Shown: positions 4,829-41,045 of the stretch, piece after piece | Numbering within the stretch: the stretch's first letter is position 1 | How the letters are laid out: each line of letters begins with the position of its first letter | DNA from: Enterobacteriaceae endosymbiont of Donacia sparganii | GTDB lineage: Bacteria; Pseudomonadota; Gammaproteobacteria; Enterobacterales; Enterobacteriaceae | Reading direction: 5' to 3' | Assembly: GCF_012569045.1 (NCBI RefSeq) | Contig: NZ_CP046196.1 | Location: 129,290-193,289, forward strand | Length of the DNA stretch: 64,000 nucleotides | The notes under the pieces: model-generated | The model's database searches: none | What the model was told of the DNA's origin: nothing | Seen by the model: the letters and a program-made list of their open reading frames with translations, nothing else | Translations under genes and position numbers: made by a program

Positions 4829-4892
4829 AAAATAATAAATTTTATTTCTTTTATAGATTTAATAAAAATATTTTAAATTAAGGATTTAATCA

Positions 4893-6395
4893 TTGAATTC
4901 TTCTTTATGTAGTTTACAAAAATTATTAAATAATTATATAAAAAATAATTTAATAAAAAATATTTTAATAGATAGAATAGTTTTAGATAGTAGAAAAATT
5001 AAAGGAAAAAATTGTCTTTTTATAGCAATAAAAGGACATAAAAATGATGGTAAAAATTTTATAGAACATGCTATCTTAAAAGGTGCTATTGCTATAATAA
5101 CTTATTCAGATAATAAGGTACCATCTTATAGTATTTTATTTAAAAAAAATATACCTATTATTTATTTACCTAATTTACATAAATATATTTCATACATTGC
5201 AGGAATCTTATATAATCATCCAAGTAAAAAAATACCTGTTATAGGAATTACCGGAACTAATGGCAAAACAAGTATAACACATTTTTTAATGCAATGGATT
5301 ACATTATTAGGAGGAAAACCAGCTGTTTTAAGTACAATAGGAAATGGTTTTTTAGAAAAATTAGTTAAAACTAAAAATACAACAGATTCAGCAATAAAAA
5401 TACAATCTACATTAAAAAATTTTATAAAACAAAAAGCTAATATTATAATAATGGAAGTTTCATCTCATGGATTAACTCAATTTAGAGTATCAAATATACT
5501 ATTTTCTATAGGAATTTTTACTAATTTAACTAGAGATCATTTAGATTATCATAAGAATATGCATAATTATGAATTATCTAAATTAAAATTTTTTACCGAT
5601 CATAAAGTAAAAAAAAAAATTATAAATATTGACGATAATATAGGATTTAAATGGTTTAAAAAATTATCTAATGTAATATTAGTTACTACAAAAAAAAAAT
5701 TTTTATGTAAATCTAATTTATTTATTTATGTAAAACATATAACTTATTCATCTGATAAAACAATTATTGTATTTAATTCTAGTTGGGGTAATGGAAAATT
5801 AAAAATTAATCTTATAGGTAAGTTTAATGTTATAAATATTATTTTAAGTATGGCTGCATTATTAAATTTAAATTATCCTTTAAAGAAATTAATAAAAACA
5901 GTATCTAAAATACATTCCGTGAAAGGAAGAATGGAAAAAATATTTTTTAAAAAAAAATATTCTAACATAATAATAGATTATGCTCATAATCCTGATTCTT
6001 TAAAAAATTTATTATTAACTATAAGAAAAAATAATTATGGTAAAATATGGTGTATTTTTGGATGTGGAGGAGAAAGAGATATAGGAAAAAGAAAAATAAT
6101 GGGATATATAGCTACTAAATATGCTGATAATATAATCTTAACAACTGATAATCCTAGAACAGAAAATATAAATAATATAATTAAAGATATAAAAAAAGGA
6201 TGTAGTAAATTAAATAATGTTTTTACTATTTTAGATAGGACTAAAGCTATTTCTTATGCAATCTTTAATTCTTCTAGAAAGGATATTATTTTGGTAATTG
6301 GTAAAGGTCATGAAAATTATCAAATTATTGGTAAAAAAATTTTAAATTATTCAGATTTTGATACTATTAACAATATATTAAGAAATATTAAATGA
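4893..6395 (+). CDS. murE: UDP-MurNAc-L-Ala-D-Glu:meso-DAP ligase MurE (TTG start)
   Basis: MurE adds meso-diaminopimelate to the growing peptidoglycan stem peptide in the cytoplasm. It has 500 residues (E. coli 495). ATP loop GITGTNGKTS, MEVSSHGL and NLTRDHLDYH are present, and the DNPRTE motif identifies the DAP-specific rather than Lys-specific enzyme. The start is a TTG at 4893, chosen because an AAGGA ribosome site lies at about 4880-4884 and the reading frame then matches the family N-terminus; no in-frame ATG fits. The stop TGA overlaps the murF ATG (ATGA, 6392-6395), implying translational coupling. Confidence 0.96.
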   Translation: MNSSLCSLQKLLNNYIKNNLIKNILIDRIVLDSRKIKGKNCLFIAIKGHKNDGKNFIEHAILKGAIAIITYSDNKVPSYSILFKKNIPIIYLPNLHKYISYIAGILYNHPSKKIPVIGITGTNGKTSITHFLMQWITLLGGKPAVLSTIGNGFLEKLVKTKNTTDSAIKIQSTLKNFIKQKANIIIMEVSSHGLTQFRVSNILFSIGIFTNLTRDHLDYHKNMHNYELSKLKFFTDHKVKKKIINIDDNIGFKWFKKLSNVILVTTKKKFLCKSNLFIYVKHITYSSDKTIIVFNSSWGNGKLKINLIGKFNVINIILSMAALLNLNYPLKKLIKTVSKIHSVKGRMEKIFFKKKYSNIIIDYAHNPDSLKNLLLTIRKNNYGKIWCIFGCGGERDIGKRKIMGYIATKYADNIILTTDNPRTENINNIIKDIKKGCSKLNNVFTILDRTKAISYAIFNSSRKDIILVIGKGHENYQIIGKKILNYSDFDTINNILRNIK

Positions 6396-10146: not shown

Positions 10147-10169
10147 TATTTTTTTATTAAAAAATATTA
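10144..10169 (+). repeat. A/T hairpin at the site of the lost ftsW
   Basis: Perfect 11-bp inverted repeat (10144-10154 and 10159-10169, loop TATT) that starts on the murD stop codon. It is all A/T, so it is a weak structure. It may be a remnant terminator, a processing site or simple chance in A/T-rich DNA. It lies exactly where ftsW would begin in E. coli. Confidence 0.4.
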
Positions 10170-10212
10170 TATAATTAAAATATTTTAATTTATATCAAAA
10201 TATTTTTAAATT

Positions 10213-11277
10213 ATGAAAAAAAACAAAAAAATTCTTATAGTAGCTGGAGGAACAGGAGGACATATTATTCCTGCTTTAAATATAGCATATACATTAATAA
10301 AAAAAGGATGGGAAGTACGTTGGTTAGGAACATATTCTAGAATGGAGTCTAAAATTATTCCTAAAAAAAATATACGTATTTATTTAATAAAATTTTTTAG
10401 ATTTAAAAAAAAAAATATTTTTTCAATTATTATTACTATAATTAAATTATTTATATCTACTTATAAATCAATTTTAATTTATAAAAAATATAAACCACAC
10501 TTAGTATTAACAATGGGAAGTTATATTTCTGGACCTAGTGGTTTAGCTGCATGGTTATGTAAAATACCATTAGTCATACATGAACAAAATAATATTCCAG
10601 GTATAACAAATAAAATATTATCTAAAATTGCTACAGTCGCAATGCAAGCATATCCAAATACATTGCAGAATGCAATAGTAGTAGGAAATCCTTTAAGTGA
10701 AAAAATTATTAAATTATCTTTATATAAGAGATCTATTTTAAAAATTCATAAACCAATTCATTTATTAATTACAGGAGGTAGTCAAGGATCAAATATAATA
10801 AATAAAATAGGTATAAAATTAGCTTATATTTTAAAAAATAAAATATCAATTTTACATCAAGTAGGAAAAGGTAATTTAAAAAAAATATTTCATAAATATA
10901 AAAAAAATAAAATTAATAATTTAATTATAAAAGAATATATTAAAAATATGCATCAAGCATATGAATGGGCTGATATTATTATCTGTAGATCAGGAGCTAT
11001 GACTGTAAGTGAGATTACTGCAATAGGATTACCTGCTATTTTTATACCATTTCAACATAAAGATAAACAACAATATTTTAATGCAATAAATTTACAAAAA
11101 ATAGGAGCTGCTAAAATTTATGAACAACATAATTTAAATATTAATAATATTGTAAATACTATATTATCTTTAAATACCAAAAAAATGCTAAGTATATCAA
11201 AAAAATCTTATAATCTATCTATTATAGATTCTACAAAATTGATTTATAAAGAATTAAATAGAATAAAAATTAATTAA
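10213..11277 (+). CDS. murG: UDP-GlcNAc:undecaprenyl-PP-MurNAc-pentapeptide GlcNAc transferase MurG
   Basis: MurG makes lipid II from lipid I on the inner face of the cytoplasmic membrane (GT28 fold). It has 354 residues (E. coli 355). The glycine-rich loop VAGGTGGHIIPALNIA opens the protein, followed by TMGSYISGPSGLAAW and HEQNNIPGITNK. The C-terminal donor site shows TGGSQGSNIIN and CRSGAMTVSEI. It is 30 bases upstream of murC. Confidence 0.97.
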   Translation: MKKNKKILIVAGGTGGHIIPALNIAYTLIKKGWEVRWLGTYSRMESKIIPKKNIRIYLIKFFRFKKKNIFSIIITIIKLFISTYKSILIYKKYKPHLVLTMGSYISGPSGLAAWLCKIPLVIHEQNNIPGITNKILSKIATVAMQAYPNTLQNAIVVGNPLSEKIIKLSLYKRSILKIHKPIHLLITGGSQGSNIINKIGIKLAYILKNKISILHQVGKGNLKKIFHKYKKNKINNLIIKEYIKNMHQAYEWADIIICRSGAMTVSEITAIGLPAIFIPFQHKDKQQYFNAINLQKIGAAKIYEQHNLNINNIVNTILSLNTKKMLSISKKSYNLSIIDSTKLIYKELNRIKIN

Positions 11278-11307
11278 TTTAATATTTACATAAGATGAAA
11301 ATTAAAA

Positions 11308-12795
11308 ATGTTTAGTAAAAAAATTTTTAATAAAATACCAAAAATGAAAAATATTAATCATATATATTTTATTGGTATTGGTGGTTCTGGAATGGGGGGG
11401 ATTGCGACTATATTGGCAAAACAAGGATATAAAATTAGTGGTTCAGATTTATTTTCTAATTTTATTATAAAAGATCTAACTTTATTAAATATAAAGATAT
11501 ATTTTAAACATGATGCTAAAAATATAACAAATAATATAGATCTCGTTATAGTATCTACTGCTATAAAAAATGATAATCCAGAATTAATTACTGCAAAAAA
11601 ATTAAATATTACTATACTTAGTAGAGCACAAATGTTGGCAAAATTAATGAAATTTTCTTATGGAATAACTATTACAGGAACTCATGGAAAAACAACAACT
11701 ACAGCTATGATATATGAAATATATAAATTAGCTGGATTAAATCCTACATTTATAAATGGGGGTATTTTAAAATCTTCTAAAAAATACGCTTATTTAGGTT
11801 CAAGTAAATATTTTATTGCAGAGGCAGATGAAAGCGATGGATCTTTTTTACATTTAAAACCTATTATAAACATCATTACAAATATTGAAAATGAACATTT
11901 AGATTTTTATGAACATAATATTGAAATATTAAAAAAAACATTTTTAAAATTTTTAAAAAAACTTCCATCTTATGGATGTATAATTATTTGTATAGATAAT
12001 ATACATAACTATGATTTAATCAAAAAAAATAAACATCTTTTAAAAAAAAATATTATTACATATGGATTTCATAAAGATGCTGATATACAATTGTTTAATT
12101 ATAACCAGAATGGTTATAAAACTAGTTTTTTTTTATTAGAAAAAAAAAAAAATTTATATTTAAAAATAAAATTAAATATTCCTGGTTATCATAATGTATT
12201 AAATGCAACAGCTGCATTTGCAGTATCATCTTATATTGGTTTAAATTATTCAATAATTTTAAGATCTTTAAAAAAATTTCAAGGTATTAAAAGAAGATTT
12301 GATATTTTAGGAATGTTATTTCCTTATAAAAATATAAATAATAAAAAAAATATAATTATTATTGATGATTATGGTCATCATCCAACTGAAATAAAAATGA
12401 CTATAAATACAGCTCGTAAAATATGGCCAAATAGAAATTTAATCATGATTTTTCAACCACATCGTTATTCTAGAACTAAAAATTTATCAAATGAATTTGT
12501 AAAAATATTATCAAAAGTTGATAAATTATTTTTATTAAAAATTTATTCTGCAGGAGAAAAATTTATAAAAAATGCTAATAGTGAATATTTATTTAAAAAA
12601 ATTAAAAAATTAGGAATTATAAAACCTATTTTGATTAAATCGAAAAATTATTATATTATTATAAATAATATATATTCGCAATTAATAGGAAATGAAATAT
12701 TAATTTTTCAAGGAGCAGGTGATATAAATAATATATCTTCATTATTAATGAAATATAAATTTAAAAATAAAAAAATTAATAATCAAAACTTATAA
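11308..12795 (+). CDS. murC: UDP-MurNAc:L-alanine ligase MurC
   Basis: MurC is the first Mur ligase and adds L-Ala to UDP-MurNAc. It has 495 residues (E. coli 491). It shows an N-terminal GIGGSGMGGIA, the ATP loop ITGTHGKTTTTAM, AEADESDGSF and NIENEHLDFY, and the C-terminal DDYGHHPTEI and QPHRYSRT. A run of 13 consecutive A residues at about 12140-12152 encodes Glu-Lys-Lys-Lys-Asn in frame; such tracts are prone to replication and transcription slippage. The gene remains open across it. ddlB follows after 17 bases. Confidence 0.97.
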   Translation: MFSKKIFNKIPKMKNINHIYFIGIGGSGMGGIATILAKQGYKISGSDLFSNFIIKDLTLLNIKIYFKHDAKNITNNIDLVIVSTAIKNDNPELITAKKLNITILSRAQMLAKLMKFSYGITITGTHGKTTTTAMIYEIYKLAGLNPTFINGGILKSSKKYAYLGSSKYFIAEADESDGSFLHLKPIINIITNIENEHLDFYEHNIEILKKTFLKFLKKLPSYGCIIICIDNIHNYDLIKKNKHLLKKNIITYGFHKDADIQLFNYNQNGYKTSFFLLEKKKNLYLKIKLNIPGYHNVLNATAAFAVSSYIGLNYSIILRSLKKFQGIKRRFDILGMLFPYKNINNKKNIIIIDDYGHHPTEIKMTINTARKIWPNRNLIMIFQPHRYSRTKNLSNEFVKILSKVDKLFLLKIYSAGEKFIKNANSEYLFKKIKKLGIIKPILIKSKNYYIIINNIYSQLIGNEILIFQGAGDINNISSLLMKYKFKNKKINNQNL

Positions 12796-12812
12796 TAAAT
12801 TTTAATTAAATT

Positions 12813-13736
12813 ATGTCTAGAAAAATAGCTGTATTATTTGGGGGTAATTCTCCAGAAAGAGAAATTTCTTTAAAATCTGGTAAAGCAATTTTAAATGCTT
12901 TAGTAAAATTAGGTATTAATGCTATTGGGATAGATCCAATAAACTTCCCATTATTATATTTAAAAAAATATGGATTTAAAAAAATTTTTATATCTTTACA
13001 CGGTAAAGGTGGAGAAGATGGTACTGTACAAGGAATATTAGATTATCTTAATATTCCTTATACTGGAAGTGGATTATTATCTTCTGCAATAACTATGAAT
13101 AAATTTATTACAAAAACTCTTTGGAGAGAGTATGGATTACCTGTTGTCTATCCTTATTTTTTATTAAATAAAAAAAAATTTATAAAATCAAATTATTTAA
13201 AAATAGAAAAAAAAATTTTAAAATTTAAATTACCTATTTTTATAAAACCTAATTGTAATGGATCTAGTTTAGGTATTTCAAAAGTAAATCATTTAGATAA
13301 TTTATTTGATGCAATAAAAAAAGCATTTATATATAGTGAGGATATTTTAATTGAAAAATATATAAAAGGTGAAGAATATACAGTTGGAATTCTAGATAAA
13401 AAAATTTTACCTCCTATAAAAATAGAATATTCTAGTTCTTTTTATAATTATCAAGCTAAATATTATTTAAATACTACTAAATATTTTTGTCCTAGCGGAT
13501 TAAATAAAAATAAAGAAAAAGAATTAGAAAAAATAGTTTTAAATGCTTGGAATGTTGTAAAATGTAATACATGGGGAAGAATTGATATTATTTTAGATGA
13601 AAATAAAAATTTTCAATTATTAGAAATAAATACTATACCTGGTATGACTTCTCAAAGTTTGTATCCAATAGCAGCTAAAAAAGCAGGATTATCTTTTTAT
13701 GATTTAGTTATAAAAATTTTAAATTTAACTAAATAA
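12813..13736 (+). CDS. ddlB: D-alanine:D-alanine ligase DdlB
   Basis: DdlB makes the D-Ala-D-Ala dipeptide used by MurF (ATP-grasp fold). It has 307 residues (E. coli 306). Motifs: VLFGGNSPEREISLKSG at the start, LHGKGGEDGTVQG, the ATP-grasp loop KPNCNGSSLGISKV, and the C-terminal EINTIPGMTSQSLYP with metal ligands. It is the last dcw gene here. ftsQ, ftsA, ftsZ and lpxC, which follow in E. coli, are absent, and the next gene is convergent. Confidence 0.97.
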   Translation: MSRKIAVLFGGNSPEREISLKSGKAILNALVKLGINAIGIDPINFPLLYLKKYGFKKIFISLHGKGGEDGTVQGILDYLNIPYTGSGLLSSAITMNKFITKTLWREYGLPVVYPYFLLNKKKFIKSNYLKIEKKILKFKLPIFIKPNCNGSSLGISKVNHLDNLFDAIKKAFIYSEDILIEKYIKGEEYTVGILDKKILPPIKIEYSSSFYNYQAKYYLNTTKYFCPSGLNKNKEKELEKIVLNAWNVVKCNTWGRIDIILDENKNFQLLEINTIPGMTSQSLYPIAAKKAGLSFYDLVIKILNLTK

Positions 13737-13785
13737 ATTTTTCTATATAAAATAATTTATTTAATAAAAATTAATTTAAATTTTA

Positions 13786-14271
13786 TTAATAATAGGCTAT
13801 TTTAATAAATCTTTTTATTATATAACCTAATTTTTTAGGACTTTTTTTTGCAATATTTAATAATAATTTAGCACTATATTTCGTTAATAAATTTTTTTCT
13901 AAATTATATTTATTATTAATATTATTTTTAATAAATGTTGTTTTTAAAAAAACAGGATTAATTTTAATATCTATCTTTTTTAAAGATGGAATAACATATT
14001 TTTTTAGATAAACTAAAATAGTTGATTTTATAGATAAAAATCTCATTAAGGAACTTGCATTATATGTTTCTATAATTAGAATATTATTTTTTAAATTTTT
14101 AACATTATACCAATGGTGTAATTGTACAGGTAAATATTTTTTGATAATTTTATTAATTTTTATTAAAATATCTGTATGTATATATATTTTATGTAATATC
14201 TTCGTATAAGAAGAATAATATTTTTTTTGAAAAATTGTATTAATTAATAATAATTTATTATTACGCATCAT
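13786..14271 (-). CDS. dciA: DUF721/DciA-like protein, putative replicative helicase loader
   Basis: A 161-residue basic protein convergent with ddlB and divergent from secA. Residues ~35-110 fit the DUF721 (DciA) pattern: a helix ending LPVQLHHWYNV, then strands ILIIETYNASSLMRFLS, a helix and IDIKINPVF. In bacteria that lack a DnaC-type loader, DciA loads DnaB helicase. In several gammaproteobacteria a DUF721 gene sits beside secA/lpxC, which matches this position. E. coli uses DnaC and has no such gene. No catalytic residue is expected. The family call rests on pattern and position only. The 115 bases to secA contain no secM. Confidence 0.68.
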   Translation of the reverse strand: MMRNNKLLLINTIFQKKYYSSYTKILHKIYIHTDILIKINKIIKKYLPVQLHHWYNVKNLKNNILIIETYNASSLMRFLSIKSTILVYLKKYVIPSLKKIDIKINPVFLKTTFIKNNINNKYNLEKNLLTKYSAKLLLNIAKKSPKKLGYIIKRFIKIAYY

Positions 14272-14386
14272 TTTTGTCTTTTAAAGTTTTTTATAAAAAA
14301 TTATAAATATTTTTTATATTTTTGTTAAAATAAATATTAAATAATATTTATAATTATACAATTATATTTTTATTAAGAGTATTTAT

Positions 14387-17134
14387 ATGTTAAAAAAAAT
14401 TTTTACTAAAATTTTTGGTAGTAATAATGATCATGTTTTACGACGTATTCAAAAAACAGTAAATATTATTAATGATATGGAAATAGAATTTGAAAAATTA
14501 ACTAATTTTGAATTACAAAATAAAACTTTATTTTTTAAAAAAAAATTACAAAATAATTTTTCTTTAGAAAATATTTTACCAGAAGCTTTTGCAACAGTTA
14601 GGGAAGCTAGTAAAAGAGTATTTGGTATGCGTCACTTTGACGTTCAATTAATAGGAGGTATTGTATTAAATAATAATTGTGTAGCAGAAATGAAAACTGG
14701 AGAAGGTAAAACATTAACATCTACATTACCAGCATATCTTAATGCTCTTACTGGTAAAGGAGTCCATATTGTTACTGTTAATGATTATTTAGCAAAACGT
14801 GATGCTATAAATAATAAAATATTATTTAAATTTTTAGGATTAAATGTCGGTATTAATATATCAAATATGTCATTACAAGAAAAAAAAATTGCTTATCAAG
14901 CAGATATTACTTACGGGACTAATAATGAATATGGATTTGATTTTTTAAGAGATAATATGGTTCTTGATTATAATGATAAAGTACAACGTAGTTTAAACTA
15001 CGCTATTATAGATGAAGTTGATTCAATATTAATTGATGAAGCTCGCACTCCTTTAATTATTTCAGGATCTGCTGAAGATAGTTCAGATTTATATATTAAA
15101 ATAAATAATATTATACCTCATCTAATATATCAATCAAAAGATGATTCTCCTTCTTATCAAGGTAAAGGACATTTTTTTATAGATGAAAAATCTCGTCAAG
15201 CATATTTAACTGAGAAAGGTTTAATTTATTTAGAAAAAATATTAATAGAAAAAAAAATAATAAATATAGGAGAATCTTTATATTCTAAAAATAATATTAT
15301 TATTTTACATCATATTATTTCTGCATTAAGAGCACATAAACTTTTTAAAAAAAATGTTGATTATATATTAAAAAATAATAAAATTATAATAGTAGATGAA
15401 CATACTGGAAGATTAATGGAAGGTAGAAGATGGTCAGAAGGATTACATCAGGCTATAGAAGCTAAAGAAAATGTTAAAATTAATAATGAAAATCAAACTC
15501 TAGCATCTATAACATTTCAAAATTATTTTAGATTATATAAAAAATTATCAGGAATGACAGGTACCGCTATTACAGAATCTTTTGAATTTAAAGAAATTTA
15601 TAAATTAGATACAATAGTTGTTCCAACTAATAAACCTATGATTAGAAAAGATTTAGCAGATTTAATTTATTTAACTAAAAAAGAAAAAATAAAAGCTATA
15701 ATTAAAGATATAAAAGAAAAACACCTAAAAGGTCAACCTATATTAGTTGGTACTGTTTCTATAAAAAAATCAGAATTAATTTCTCAAAAATTAAAAGAAA
15801 TAGGTATAAAACATAATATTTTAAATGCTAAATTTCATGCTAAAGAAGCAGAAATAATTTCAAAAGCAGGTATAAAAAATGCAGTAACTATTGCAACTAA
15901 TATGGCAGGTAGAGGGACAGATATTGTTTTAGGTGGTAATTTTATATTTAGTAATAATAAATATAATTTAGATAAAATAAAAAATTTAAAATTACAATGG
16001 CAAGAAAAACATAATGAAATTGTAAAATTAGGTGGTTTATATGTTATCGGAACTGAACGTCATGAATCTAGAAGAATTGATAATCAATTAAGAGGTCGTT
16101 CTGGTAGACAAGGAGATAAAGGTATATCAAGATTTTATTTGTCAATGGAAGATTCTTTAATGCGTATTTTTGCTCCTAAAAATATGTTATTTTTAATGAA
16201 TAAACTTGGTATGAAATCTAATGATTATATTGAACATCCTTGGATAACTAAAGCTATATCTACAGCACAAAAAAAAGTAGAACATTATAATTTTGATATA
16301 CGTAAACAATTACTTGAATACGATGATGTAATAAATGATCAACGTTTAGCAATATATTTACAAAGAAATAAATTATTAAAATCATTAAATATTAATCAAA
16401 TAATTAAAAATTTTAGAATTGATGTTTTTACAAAAATAATAAATAGTTATATAAAATCTGATAGTTTTATCAAAGAAAAGTGGAATTTAAAAAAACTAAA
16501 AATTTATTTTTTTAATGTTTTTAATTTACAATTTCCTATTAAAAATTGGATACATAAATATCAAGAAAAAAATAAAAAAAAAATTAATAAAAATTATTTT
16601 TTTAAAAAAATTATTAATTTTTCAGAACAAGAATATATAAAAAAAATAAATACTCTAGATATTAAAACAGAATATATAAAAATTTTTGAAAAAAATATTG
16701 TTTTACAGATTTTAGATAGTTTATGGAAAGATCATCTTGCTGCAATAGAATATTTAAAACAAGGTATTCATTTAAGAGGCTATGCACAAAAAGATCCTAA
16801 ACAAGAATATAAACGTGAATCTTTTCATATGTTTAATATTATGTTGGATACTTTAAAAAAAGAAGTTATTATTACTTTAAGTAAAATAGAAAATGAAATA
16901 ATAAAAAATTATCATAAATCTTCAAAAAAATCAGAAAAAACTAGAATTTTTAACGATTATATAAAAAATAATAACTTAATTATTATAAAAAAAATATCTG
17001 ATTCTTCTATAAATAATACAAATAAATATTTAAATAATACAAATTTTCTTCAAAAAAAAATAGGTAGAAATGAAAAATGTCCTTGTTTTTCAGGAAAAAA
17101 ATATAAATTTTGTCATGGTTTAATAATAAAATAA
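14387..17134 (+). CDS. secA: preprotein translocase ATPase SecA
   Basis: SecA is the motor of Sec-dependent export at the inner membrane. It has 915 residues (E. coli 901). It shows Walker [30 protein letters not shown], the NBD2 motifs [14 protein letters not shown] and [12 protein letters not shown], and an intact C-terminal zinc motif [14 protein letters not shown] that in E. coli binds SecB and lipids. An AAGAG ribosome site precedes the ATG. The arrest-peptide regulator SecM is absent upstream. The stop codon lies inside the arm of the long palindrome shared with dnaJ. Confidence 0.98.
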
Positions 17135-39506: not shown

Positions 39507-40334
39507 TTATTTTATTTTTATCCATATATTTAAATTTATTTTTTTTTTAAAAAATTTTTCTATACTTTTTTCAGATCTATATTTAATTAATTTTAATGTT
39601 GTAGCATTTTTACCTATTATTATTTTTTTTTGGTTTATATTTTTTATTAATAAAAAAATTTTTATTTTATTTGGTATTATTTTAAATTTTTTATAAAAAA
39701 AAACTTTAATATCTATTAAATAGGGTAATTCTTTATGTAAATATTTAATGATACTTTCTCTTATAATTTCTTTTAAAATAATTTCTTCTGTTTGATTAGT
39801 AATATAATTTTTAGGGTACTGATGTTTTTTTTTAGGTAAGTTTTTACAAATTATATTATTAATATCAATAGTATATAATTTATATTTAGCTGAAACCATA
39901 AATAAATAAATAAATTTTATTTTATTTTTAAGAAAATTTATATATGGTAATAATATACTTTTATTATTAATTTTATCTATTTTATTAAGAATTAAAATTA
40001 TTGGTATATTTGTTTGATTTAAAATTTTTACAAATTTATTTTCAATAAAATTCCATTTATTTCTATCTAAAATAAATAATATATAATTATATTCATTATT
40101 TTTTAATGAATTTATAATATTATTATTATAAAATATATTTCCTGGAGTATCAATATACTTTATTTGATAAGAACCTTTATTATATATTCCTGTAATACTA
40201 TAATTAGTAGTATTAATTTTATGAGAAATAATAGATATTTTTTTACCTATTAATGTATTTAATAAGGTAGATTTTCCGGCATTAGATCTACCTAAAATTA
40301 AAATACTTCCGTAATATTGAGATATTATTTTCAC
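39507..40334 (-). CDS. era: ribosome-assembly GTPase Era
   Basis: Era is a GTPase with a KH domain that binds the 3' end of 16S rRNA during 30S maturation. It has 275 residues (E. coli 301). G1 is GRSNAGKSTLLN, G3 is DTPGN and G4 is NKID. The KH domain is present but its GxxG loop reads GKNA (E. coli GNKG), and the last ~25 residues are missing. GTPase function looks intact; RNA binding may be weakened. Partners RsmA and RNase III are encoded nearby. Confidence 0.93.
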   Translation of the reverse strand: MKIISQYYGSILILGRSNAGKSTLLNTLIGKKISIISHKINTTNYSITGIYNKGSYQIKYIDTPGNIFYNNNIINSLKNNEYNYILFILDRNKWNFIENKFVKILNQTNIPIILILNKIDKINNKSILLPYINFLKNKIKFIYLFMVSAKYKLYTIDINNIICKNLPKKKHQYPKNYITNQTEEIILKEIIRESIIKYLHKELPYLIDIKVFFYKKFKIIPNKIKIFLLIKNINQKKIIIGKNATTLKLIKYRSEKSIEKFFKKKINLNIWIKIK

Positions 40335-40364
40335 ATAAATTACCTTTTATTATAAATAAATAAA

Positions 40365-41045
40365 TTATTCAAGCCCAAGCTTTTTTAAAGCTTTTTCAGC
40401 AGCAGATTGTTCTGCTTTACGACGGCTTGAACCTATTCCTGTAATCATTGCAGATACCCCACTAATTTTACATTGTATTGTAAATTTTTGATTATGTACT
40501 TCTCCATTTATTTGTATTATAAAGTAATAAGGCAAGGGAAGATGTGATCTTTGTAAATATTCTTGTAATCTTGTTTTAGGATCTTTTTGATTATTTCCAG
40601 GTAATATTCTTTTTAATCTAAATTGATACCAAAGTAAAATAATTTTTTCTACTACTTTAATATTACTATCTAAACAAATACTTCCTATTAAAGCTTCCAT
40701 TGTATCAGCTAAAATAGATTCTCTATTATATCCTCCATTTTTAAATTCTCCAGGACCTAAAAATAAATATTCACCTAATCTAAATTCTCTTGCGATACTT
40801 GCTAGTGTATTTCCTCTAACTAGAGTAGCACGCATACGACTCATATTACCTTCATTAACATCAGGAAATTTATTATATAATGCTTTAGCTATTATATAAC
40901 TTAAGATAGAATCTCCTAAAAATTCTAATCTTTCATTATGTTTACTACTTGCACTTCTATGTGTTAAAGCTTGATATAATAAATTTTGATGATTAAAAAT
41001 ATAACCTAATTTTTCTTGTAATTGACTAATCATAATAAAATTCAT
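40365..41045 (-). CDS. rnc: ribonuclease III
   Basis: RNase III cleaves double-stranded RNA, processes rRNA precursors and degrades sense-antisense duplexes. It has 226 residues, exactly the E. coli length, and is unusually well conserved for this genome: [20 protein letters not shown] contains the catalytic Glu/Asp residues, followed by [12 protein letters not shown] and [14 protein letters not shown]-terminal dsRNA-binding domain ends [19 protein letters not shown]. It lies between lepB and era as in E. coli. Confidence 0.98.

Follow-up and report, generated by a model that had tools for sequence, protein, structure and literature searches.

The window, a stretch of 64,000 nucleotides with a GC content of 19%, belongs to the genome of the Enterobacteriaceae endosymbiont of Donacia sparganii, which comprises 471,720 bases in two contigs. 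On the minus strand, an open reading frame of 161 codons sits between two plus-strand genes, which by eye are taken to be ddlB and secA, with a gap of 49 bp on the ddlB side. By sequence comparison, this frame is solidly assigned as an ortholog of dciA. The earlier note had described a 161-residue protein beside secA, and this is confirmed: the frame is open in the symbiont genome, and an ortholog (44-76% identity, 155-171 aa) is found in all 23 congeners searched. The locus is organized as follows.

12813..13736, plus strand: ddlB; only dciA lies between it and secA
13786..14271, minus strand: dciA (DUF721) ortholog; 161 codons if the first ATG is used, but a start at the second (14268), giving 160, is likelier
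13798..13890, minus strand: predicted C-terminal helix-hairpin region, residues ~128-158, aligning with the LH-DH-binding part of Vibrio cholerae DciA
13954..14196, minus strand: putative KH-like (DUF721) region, residues ~26-106, from a weak PF05258 match, 8a3v alignments and the model
14272..14386, no strand: divergent intergenic region dciA/secA, 115 bp, from the ORF positions
14387..17134, plus strand: secA, described as a conserved dciA neighbour in beta- and gammaproteobacteria (PMC5109545)

The coordinates of the KH-like and hairpin regions are derived from residue numbers; for the former, the weak PF05258 match covers residues 38-100, and model residues 15-111 superpose on 8a3v. The dciA frame opens with two consecutive ATG codons. 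The leading ATG begins ‘MR...’ in 17 of 20 genus loci and so corresponds to the second ATG here, which makes a length of 160 aa likelier than 161.

In the E. coli order assumed for this comparison, ftsQ-ftsA-ftsZ-lpxC-secM lie between ddlB and secA; none of ftsQ, ftsA, ftsZ, lpxC and secM was found within this interval of the symbiont genome. A ddlB motif and the secA start flank dciA in all 20 genus loci fetched. Among 13 dciA loci outside the genus, an LpxC motif lies within ~1.5 kb in 11, SecA in 11, and both in 9. The location beside secA, between secA and lpxC in gammaproteobacteria, was published in 2016 by Brezellec (PMC5109545). Of this family-typical location, the secA side is seen in 20/20 genus loci, and lpxC is absent from the interval of the symbiont.

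In the part of the window that spans 10147-14386 and includes the dciA locus, no ftsW lies between murD and murG, which are separated by 66 bp. The murE (4829-6395) and era (39507-40365) genes appear truncated if ATG starts alone are allowed; frameshifts were suspected, but each frame continues open in the upstream direction beyond its first ATG, and a start codon other than ATG is likely.

Homology and predicted fold of the protein

The PF05258 profile, proposed in the earlier note as a check, gives a weak match to the window protein of 13.7 bits, below the Pfam cut-off of 24. In the multi-genome search the same locus scores 14.4 bits (E 0.016), no match is obtained in the symbiont genome at E<=0.001, and the NCBIfam scan of the protein returned none. 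This weakness extends through the genus: at the dciA locus of the symbiont and its 23 congeners, PF05258 matches 21 (11.6-23.9 bits) and misses 3, and the cut-off is reached in 1 of the 24, G019, together with its neighbours in the frame. Of 19 profile members scanned singly, 7 match at E<=0.01, the window protein not among them. Its sub-cut-off score is treated as a limit of detection.

Membership of the family, as claimed earlier, is supported by profiles built within the genus. The genus-only profile (19 rows) matches chain C of 8a3v, V. cholerae DciA in complex with DnaB, at E 1.2e-12 over positions 25-158, with the next-best match after 8a3v at E 0.34; the window sequence alone matches 8a3v at E 8.1e-4. 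Aligned by hhalign to a profile of 10 DciAs from outside the genus, the genus profile reaches 99.7% (E 6.1e-27) over nearly the full length. The window protein also matches the DciAs of five larger genomes of the same family and order (G026, G035, G039, G031 and G027), with E-values from 3.6e-18 to 2.1e-13; the PF05258 scores there are 38-62 bits. It is 27-36% identical to four aligned family members. With 32 Lys+Arg against 4 Asp+Glu, the protein is strongly basic, which is weak evidence, as an AT-rich genome favours Lys; DciA has been described as a highly basic polypeptide (PMC5109545).

Positions 25-158 of the genus profile cover the KH-like domain, linker and C-terminal hairpin of V. cholerae DciA (PDB 8a3v, PMC9912922), and both the family alignment and the profile-profile comparison show the symbiont protein to retain the hairpin pattern. 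Compared with V. cholerae DciA, the symbiont protein is strongly diverged, and the eight genus DnaBs read carry no DciA-type docking-helix serine. The two systems differ further in DnaA, which V. cholerae has and which is undetected in the symbiont.

An AlphaFold model of the window protein, computed from two sequences and of low confidence (pLDDT 49.2), has 8a3v as its best structural match, as the earlier note's expectation of a KH-like fold would have it (Foldseek E 7.3e-5). In VIA-align 2, 8a3v is again the best match (Z 9.1, rmsd 4.2, 95 residues), a Z value that is not decisive alone because other KH folds score Z 7-8. The Deinococcus DciA (7ykm) ranks fifth in the Foldseek list. The N-terminal part is predicted to adopt a KH-like fold consisting of a long helix, two strands, a helix and a strand. 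Helices 134-143 and 145-160 are predicted in the C-terminal region of the same low-confidence model; together with the sequence, they indicate a helical hairpin of the LH-DH-binding type, whose binding role would follow by analogy.

Retention of dciA and the family-wide alternation with DnaC

A chance origin of the frame was rejected. Simulation of 5000 sequences from the dinucleotide composition of the ddlB-secA interval, with the ORF left in, gave longest open frames of 46 codons in the median and 126 at most, far shorter than the gene; none reaches 164. The gene is intact in 24/24 genomes, and a pseudogene was rejected on this ground; apparent premature stops in G010 and G021 proved to be the gene end, marked by a TAA inside the matches. 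A possible remnant in G030, a match with three internal stops, was left uncounted, and the longest frame in the 5 kb around it resembles MurJ by eye.

Selection on dciA is relaxed but present. By the Nei-Gojobori method, which is rough for sequences this AT-rich, the median dN/dS of dciA is 0.49 in 70 pairs with secA dS<0.35 (20 of the 24 genomes), compared with 0.23 for secA (5' part) and 0.52 for priA in the same pairs. Over all 190 pairs, the median for dciA rises to 0.63, with values up to 1.26. Pairs were ranked by secA dS, as choosing 14 pairs by low nonsynonymous difference biases dN/dS downwards; among the 16 closest pairs in this ranking, 15 range from 0.29 to 0.48, and the remaining one reaches 0.80.

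The earlier note asked for dnaC, dnaT and dnaB to be sought in the complete genome, and the outcome is in line with its proposal. DnaT at E<=0.1 and DnaC (NF005931) at E<=1e-10 have no match in the symbiont genome, and one DnaB is present (556 bits). NF005931 was used because PF01695 is too unspecific for DnaC, matching 60/60 genomes at E<=0.1; the five weak PF01695 matches in the symbiont include three listed, in frames whose length of 426-781 aa exceeds that of a DnaC. With DnaC and DnaT searched, DciA is the only helicase loader detected. In E. coli, DnaC is an AAA+ protein of phage origin, unrelated to DciA. DnaC and DnaT serve the same step there, and the LH-DH site on DnaB is the target of DnaC as well (PMC9912922); both are undetected in the symbiont.

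In 392 genomes of the family, DciA (E<1e-5) is found in 186, after removal of two weak rows (G086 and G131) from 188, and a DnaC-like protein (E<=1e-10) in 215. DnaC without DciA occurs in 182 genomes, DciA together with some DnaC-like protein in 33, and neither in 24. At a strict limit of E<1e-104, DnaC remains in 176 genomes, of which one, G150, has DciA as well; among genomes no larger than 1.2 Mb (rounded sizes), DciA occurs in 35 and DnaC in 56, never together. DciA and resident-type DnaC thus behave as alternatives, an exclusion described in 2016 (Brezellec, PMC5109545), and the symbiont lies on the DciA side, which bears out the suggestion that the gene is informative for phylogeny. G150 (4.3 Mb; DciA 1.9e-57, DnaC homolog 1.1e-121) is a possible exception, whose DnaC may reside on a mobile element. 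In three reduced genomes of a 60-genome sample (G029, G030 and G058), DnaB is present and no credible DciA, DnaC, DnaA or PriA was found.

At its own cut-off, PF05258 finds 180 of the 392 genomes, and those missed relative to the 186 are five genomes of the symbiont's own genus and G329. Standard Pfam scoring hides the loader in 23/24 genomes of the genus, and the lineage would mostly be called loader-free. Brezellec counted 49 species in which neither DciA nor DnaC was found, of which 32 have small genomes or live in association with hosts, and conceded that diverged loader genes may be missed (PMC5109545). In Moranella, the replisome is described as complete except for DnaT and DnaC (PMC3620526). 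Larger-genome Enterobacterales of the DciA type resemble the symbiont in having a protein of the same family beside secA and no resident dnaC/dnaT (PMC5109545); the symbiont differs from them in the absence of lpxC from the locus, the undetected DnaA and the PF05258 score below cut-off. The main texts of two papers on reed beetles (PMC7289800 and PMC12508126) contain no dnaA, priA, DciA or DUF721; transcriptomes of such symbionts are covered in PMC12508126, and a literature search found no earlier report of dciA or PriA in reed-beetle symbionts.

DnaA, PriA and the delivery of DnaB to DNA

DnaA normally recruits the helicase at oriC. DnaA (TIGR00362) has no match at E<=0.1 in the symbiont genome or in any of the 23 congeners. 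Judged from hand-made lists at E<=1e-30, it is absent from 20 (of 10 genera) of the 35 small genomes with DciA as well as from 19 of the 56 with DnaC, so the loss is not special to DciA genomes, and loaders of both kinds outlive DnaA. Symbionts are well known to lose dnaA, which has been interpreted as placing replication under the control of the host (PMC3620526). The proposal that the symbiont loads DnaB in the ancestral way is supported: DciA is present, DnaC and DnaT are undetected, and neither outcome that the earlier note named as refuting was obtained. As a description, ‘the ancestral way’ is incomplete, because DnaA was not found. An ordinary dciA gene is kept within an unusually stripped-down replication system.

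PriA (TIGR00595) is over cut-off in the symbiont genome (288.8 bits; contig 1, 406853-408349, outside the window) and in all 23 congeners. In an alignment of the 24 genus PriAs with nine from outside, all eight zinc cysteines are kept in 24/24. In the Walker A columns, by comparison, both glycines are kept in none of the 24, the lysine in 13 and the threonine in 1; the Walker B aspartate remains in 2, and the EEH following it in 22. The alignment-free patterns GxGK[TS], DE[EA]H and GRxGR are each absent from the 24 genus PriAs versus present in 8/8 larger-genome relatives (1.7 Mb and more, which need not be free-living), and SATP of motif III remains in 3/24. In the three genus PriAs scanned with Pfam (the symbiont's own, G001 and G009), the 3'-DNA-binding and C-terminal domains are over cut-off, and neither the winged helix nor any helicase domain is.

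These sequences mark the genus PriA as a candidate pseudohelicase derived from PriA rather than a helicase. Its ATPase activity appears to have been lost, with EEH and some SATP remaining. A PriA without working Walker motifs alongside DciA is likewise known from Deinococcus radiodurans (PMC4504706; DciA PDB 7ykm), where PriA is an experimentally shown pseudohelicase with evidence of DnaB binding, and clear priB and dnaT are lacking (PMC4504706). In Deinococcus-Thermus PriAs, the Walker A lysine is replaced by arginine, and motifs I and II are poorly matched (PMC4504706); in the symbiont, by contrast, the P-loop pattern has disappeared entirely and no DnaA was detected. The genus pseudohelicase probably arose separately from that of Deinococcus, because 8/8 larger-genome relatives keep the motifs. 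In G028, a 0.5 Mb genome of another genus with DciA and no DnaA, the PriA Walker A is degraded (glycines lost, KT kept), GRAGR and the three patterns above are absent, and the DEAD domain is still over the Pfam cut-off (28.9 vs 26).

The symbiont DciA is very probably the replicative-helicase loader of this lineage, fast-evolving but functional. In V. cholerae, the C-terminal hairpin of DciA and part of its KH-like domain make the contact with the LH-DH module of DnaB (PMC9912922); by analogy, the symbiont hairpin and KH-like domain would dock on the same module, and the docked DciA would help to place DnaB on single-stranded DNA. Since DnaA is undetected, another factor must guide DnaB to DNA. 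The best candidate for this place is PriA, which is kept in 24/24 genomes and has lost its ATPase motifs but not the zinc cysteines, the DNA-binding domain or the C-terminal domain; it would direct DciA-DnaB to DNA for initiation as well as restart. In E. coli, the PriA/PriB pathway of restart still functions with a PriA deficient in ATPase (PMC9713433), and action of DciA with PriA has been suggested for Caulobacter (PMC9825169). Replication start and restart without DnaA may depend on a catalytically dead PriA that serves as a DNA-structure-reading scaffold and hands DnaB-DciA to DNA, evolved independently of Deinococcus, a bold proposal that is possible but less likely than not. How DnaB is loaded after the loss of DnaA is a question about minimal cells, for which DciA with an apparently ATPase-dead PriA is a concrete candidate; if true, PriA and DciA would form a two-protein replacement for the DnaA/DnaC initiation system.

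Co-retention of the two proteins fits such a unit. Among the reduced genomes (up to 0.6 Mb) outside the genus in the 60-genome sample, G028 has DciA and PriA without DnaA; G029, G030 and G058 lack a credible DciA, a PriA over cut-off and DnaA; and G033 has DnaC and DnaA and no PriA over cut-off. With two genera against four, this is a lead and not proof. It also bears on the idea that DciA alone binds single-stranded DNA at SSB-covered forks and places DnaB without PriA, which would be kept for another role. In Caulobacter, the DUF721 and N-terminal regions of DciA do bind such DNA, which was proposed to help at SSB-covered stalled forks (PMC12547741), but the reduced genomes without credible DciA (G029, G030, G033 and G058) are also those without PriA over cut-off, and in the genus PriA has kept all zinc cysteines in 24/24 despite the loss of its ATPase motifs. 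This account is possible and somewhat doubtful.

A role of DciA confined to fork maintenance and restart, with host factors or transcription directing initiation, is unlikely. The milder effect of DciA depletion in Caulobacter, a delayed S phase compared with the strong initiation arrest on DnaA depletion (PMC9825169), would suit it, as would the reading of dnaA loss as host control; initiation would still need DnaB to be loaded, however, and no other loader is detected.

That dciA is a non-functional relic on its way out is very improbable: the sub-cut-off PF05258 score, a dN/dS about twice that of secA and the 24 family genomes with neither loader detected would be expected of a decaying gene, but it is intact throughout the genus at 19% GC, where chance frames stay far shorter, shows low ratios in all but one of the closest pairs, and has outlasted the genes that adjoin it in relatives. 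KH folds are widespread, and the structural neighbours of the model include many RNA-binding KH domains, ribosomal and other, but a KH-like RNA-binding protein of another role, lying here by chance, is scarcely credible given that DciA is the best match in both sequence and structure, that the sequence match includes the C-terminal hairpin, and that the gene lies beside secA.

One residue of the docking helix of DnaB has been published as a marker of the loader type (Ser for DciA, Gly for DnaC); it is not kept in the genus and gives no clear indication of the loader. The eight of 24 genus DnaBs read carry Thr (2), Asn (5) and Gly (1) at this position. Asn is also found in G029, G030 and G058, where no loader was detected, Ala and Arg in G036 and G037, and Ser in G055. 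In 17 other DciA genomes, the residue is Ser in 16 and Lys in one (G028). The DnaC genomes G024, G025, G032 and G034 carry Gly, and G033 (DnaC) and G059 (DnaT beside a DnaC-like frame) carry Ser.
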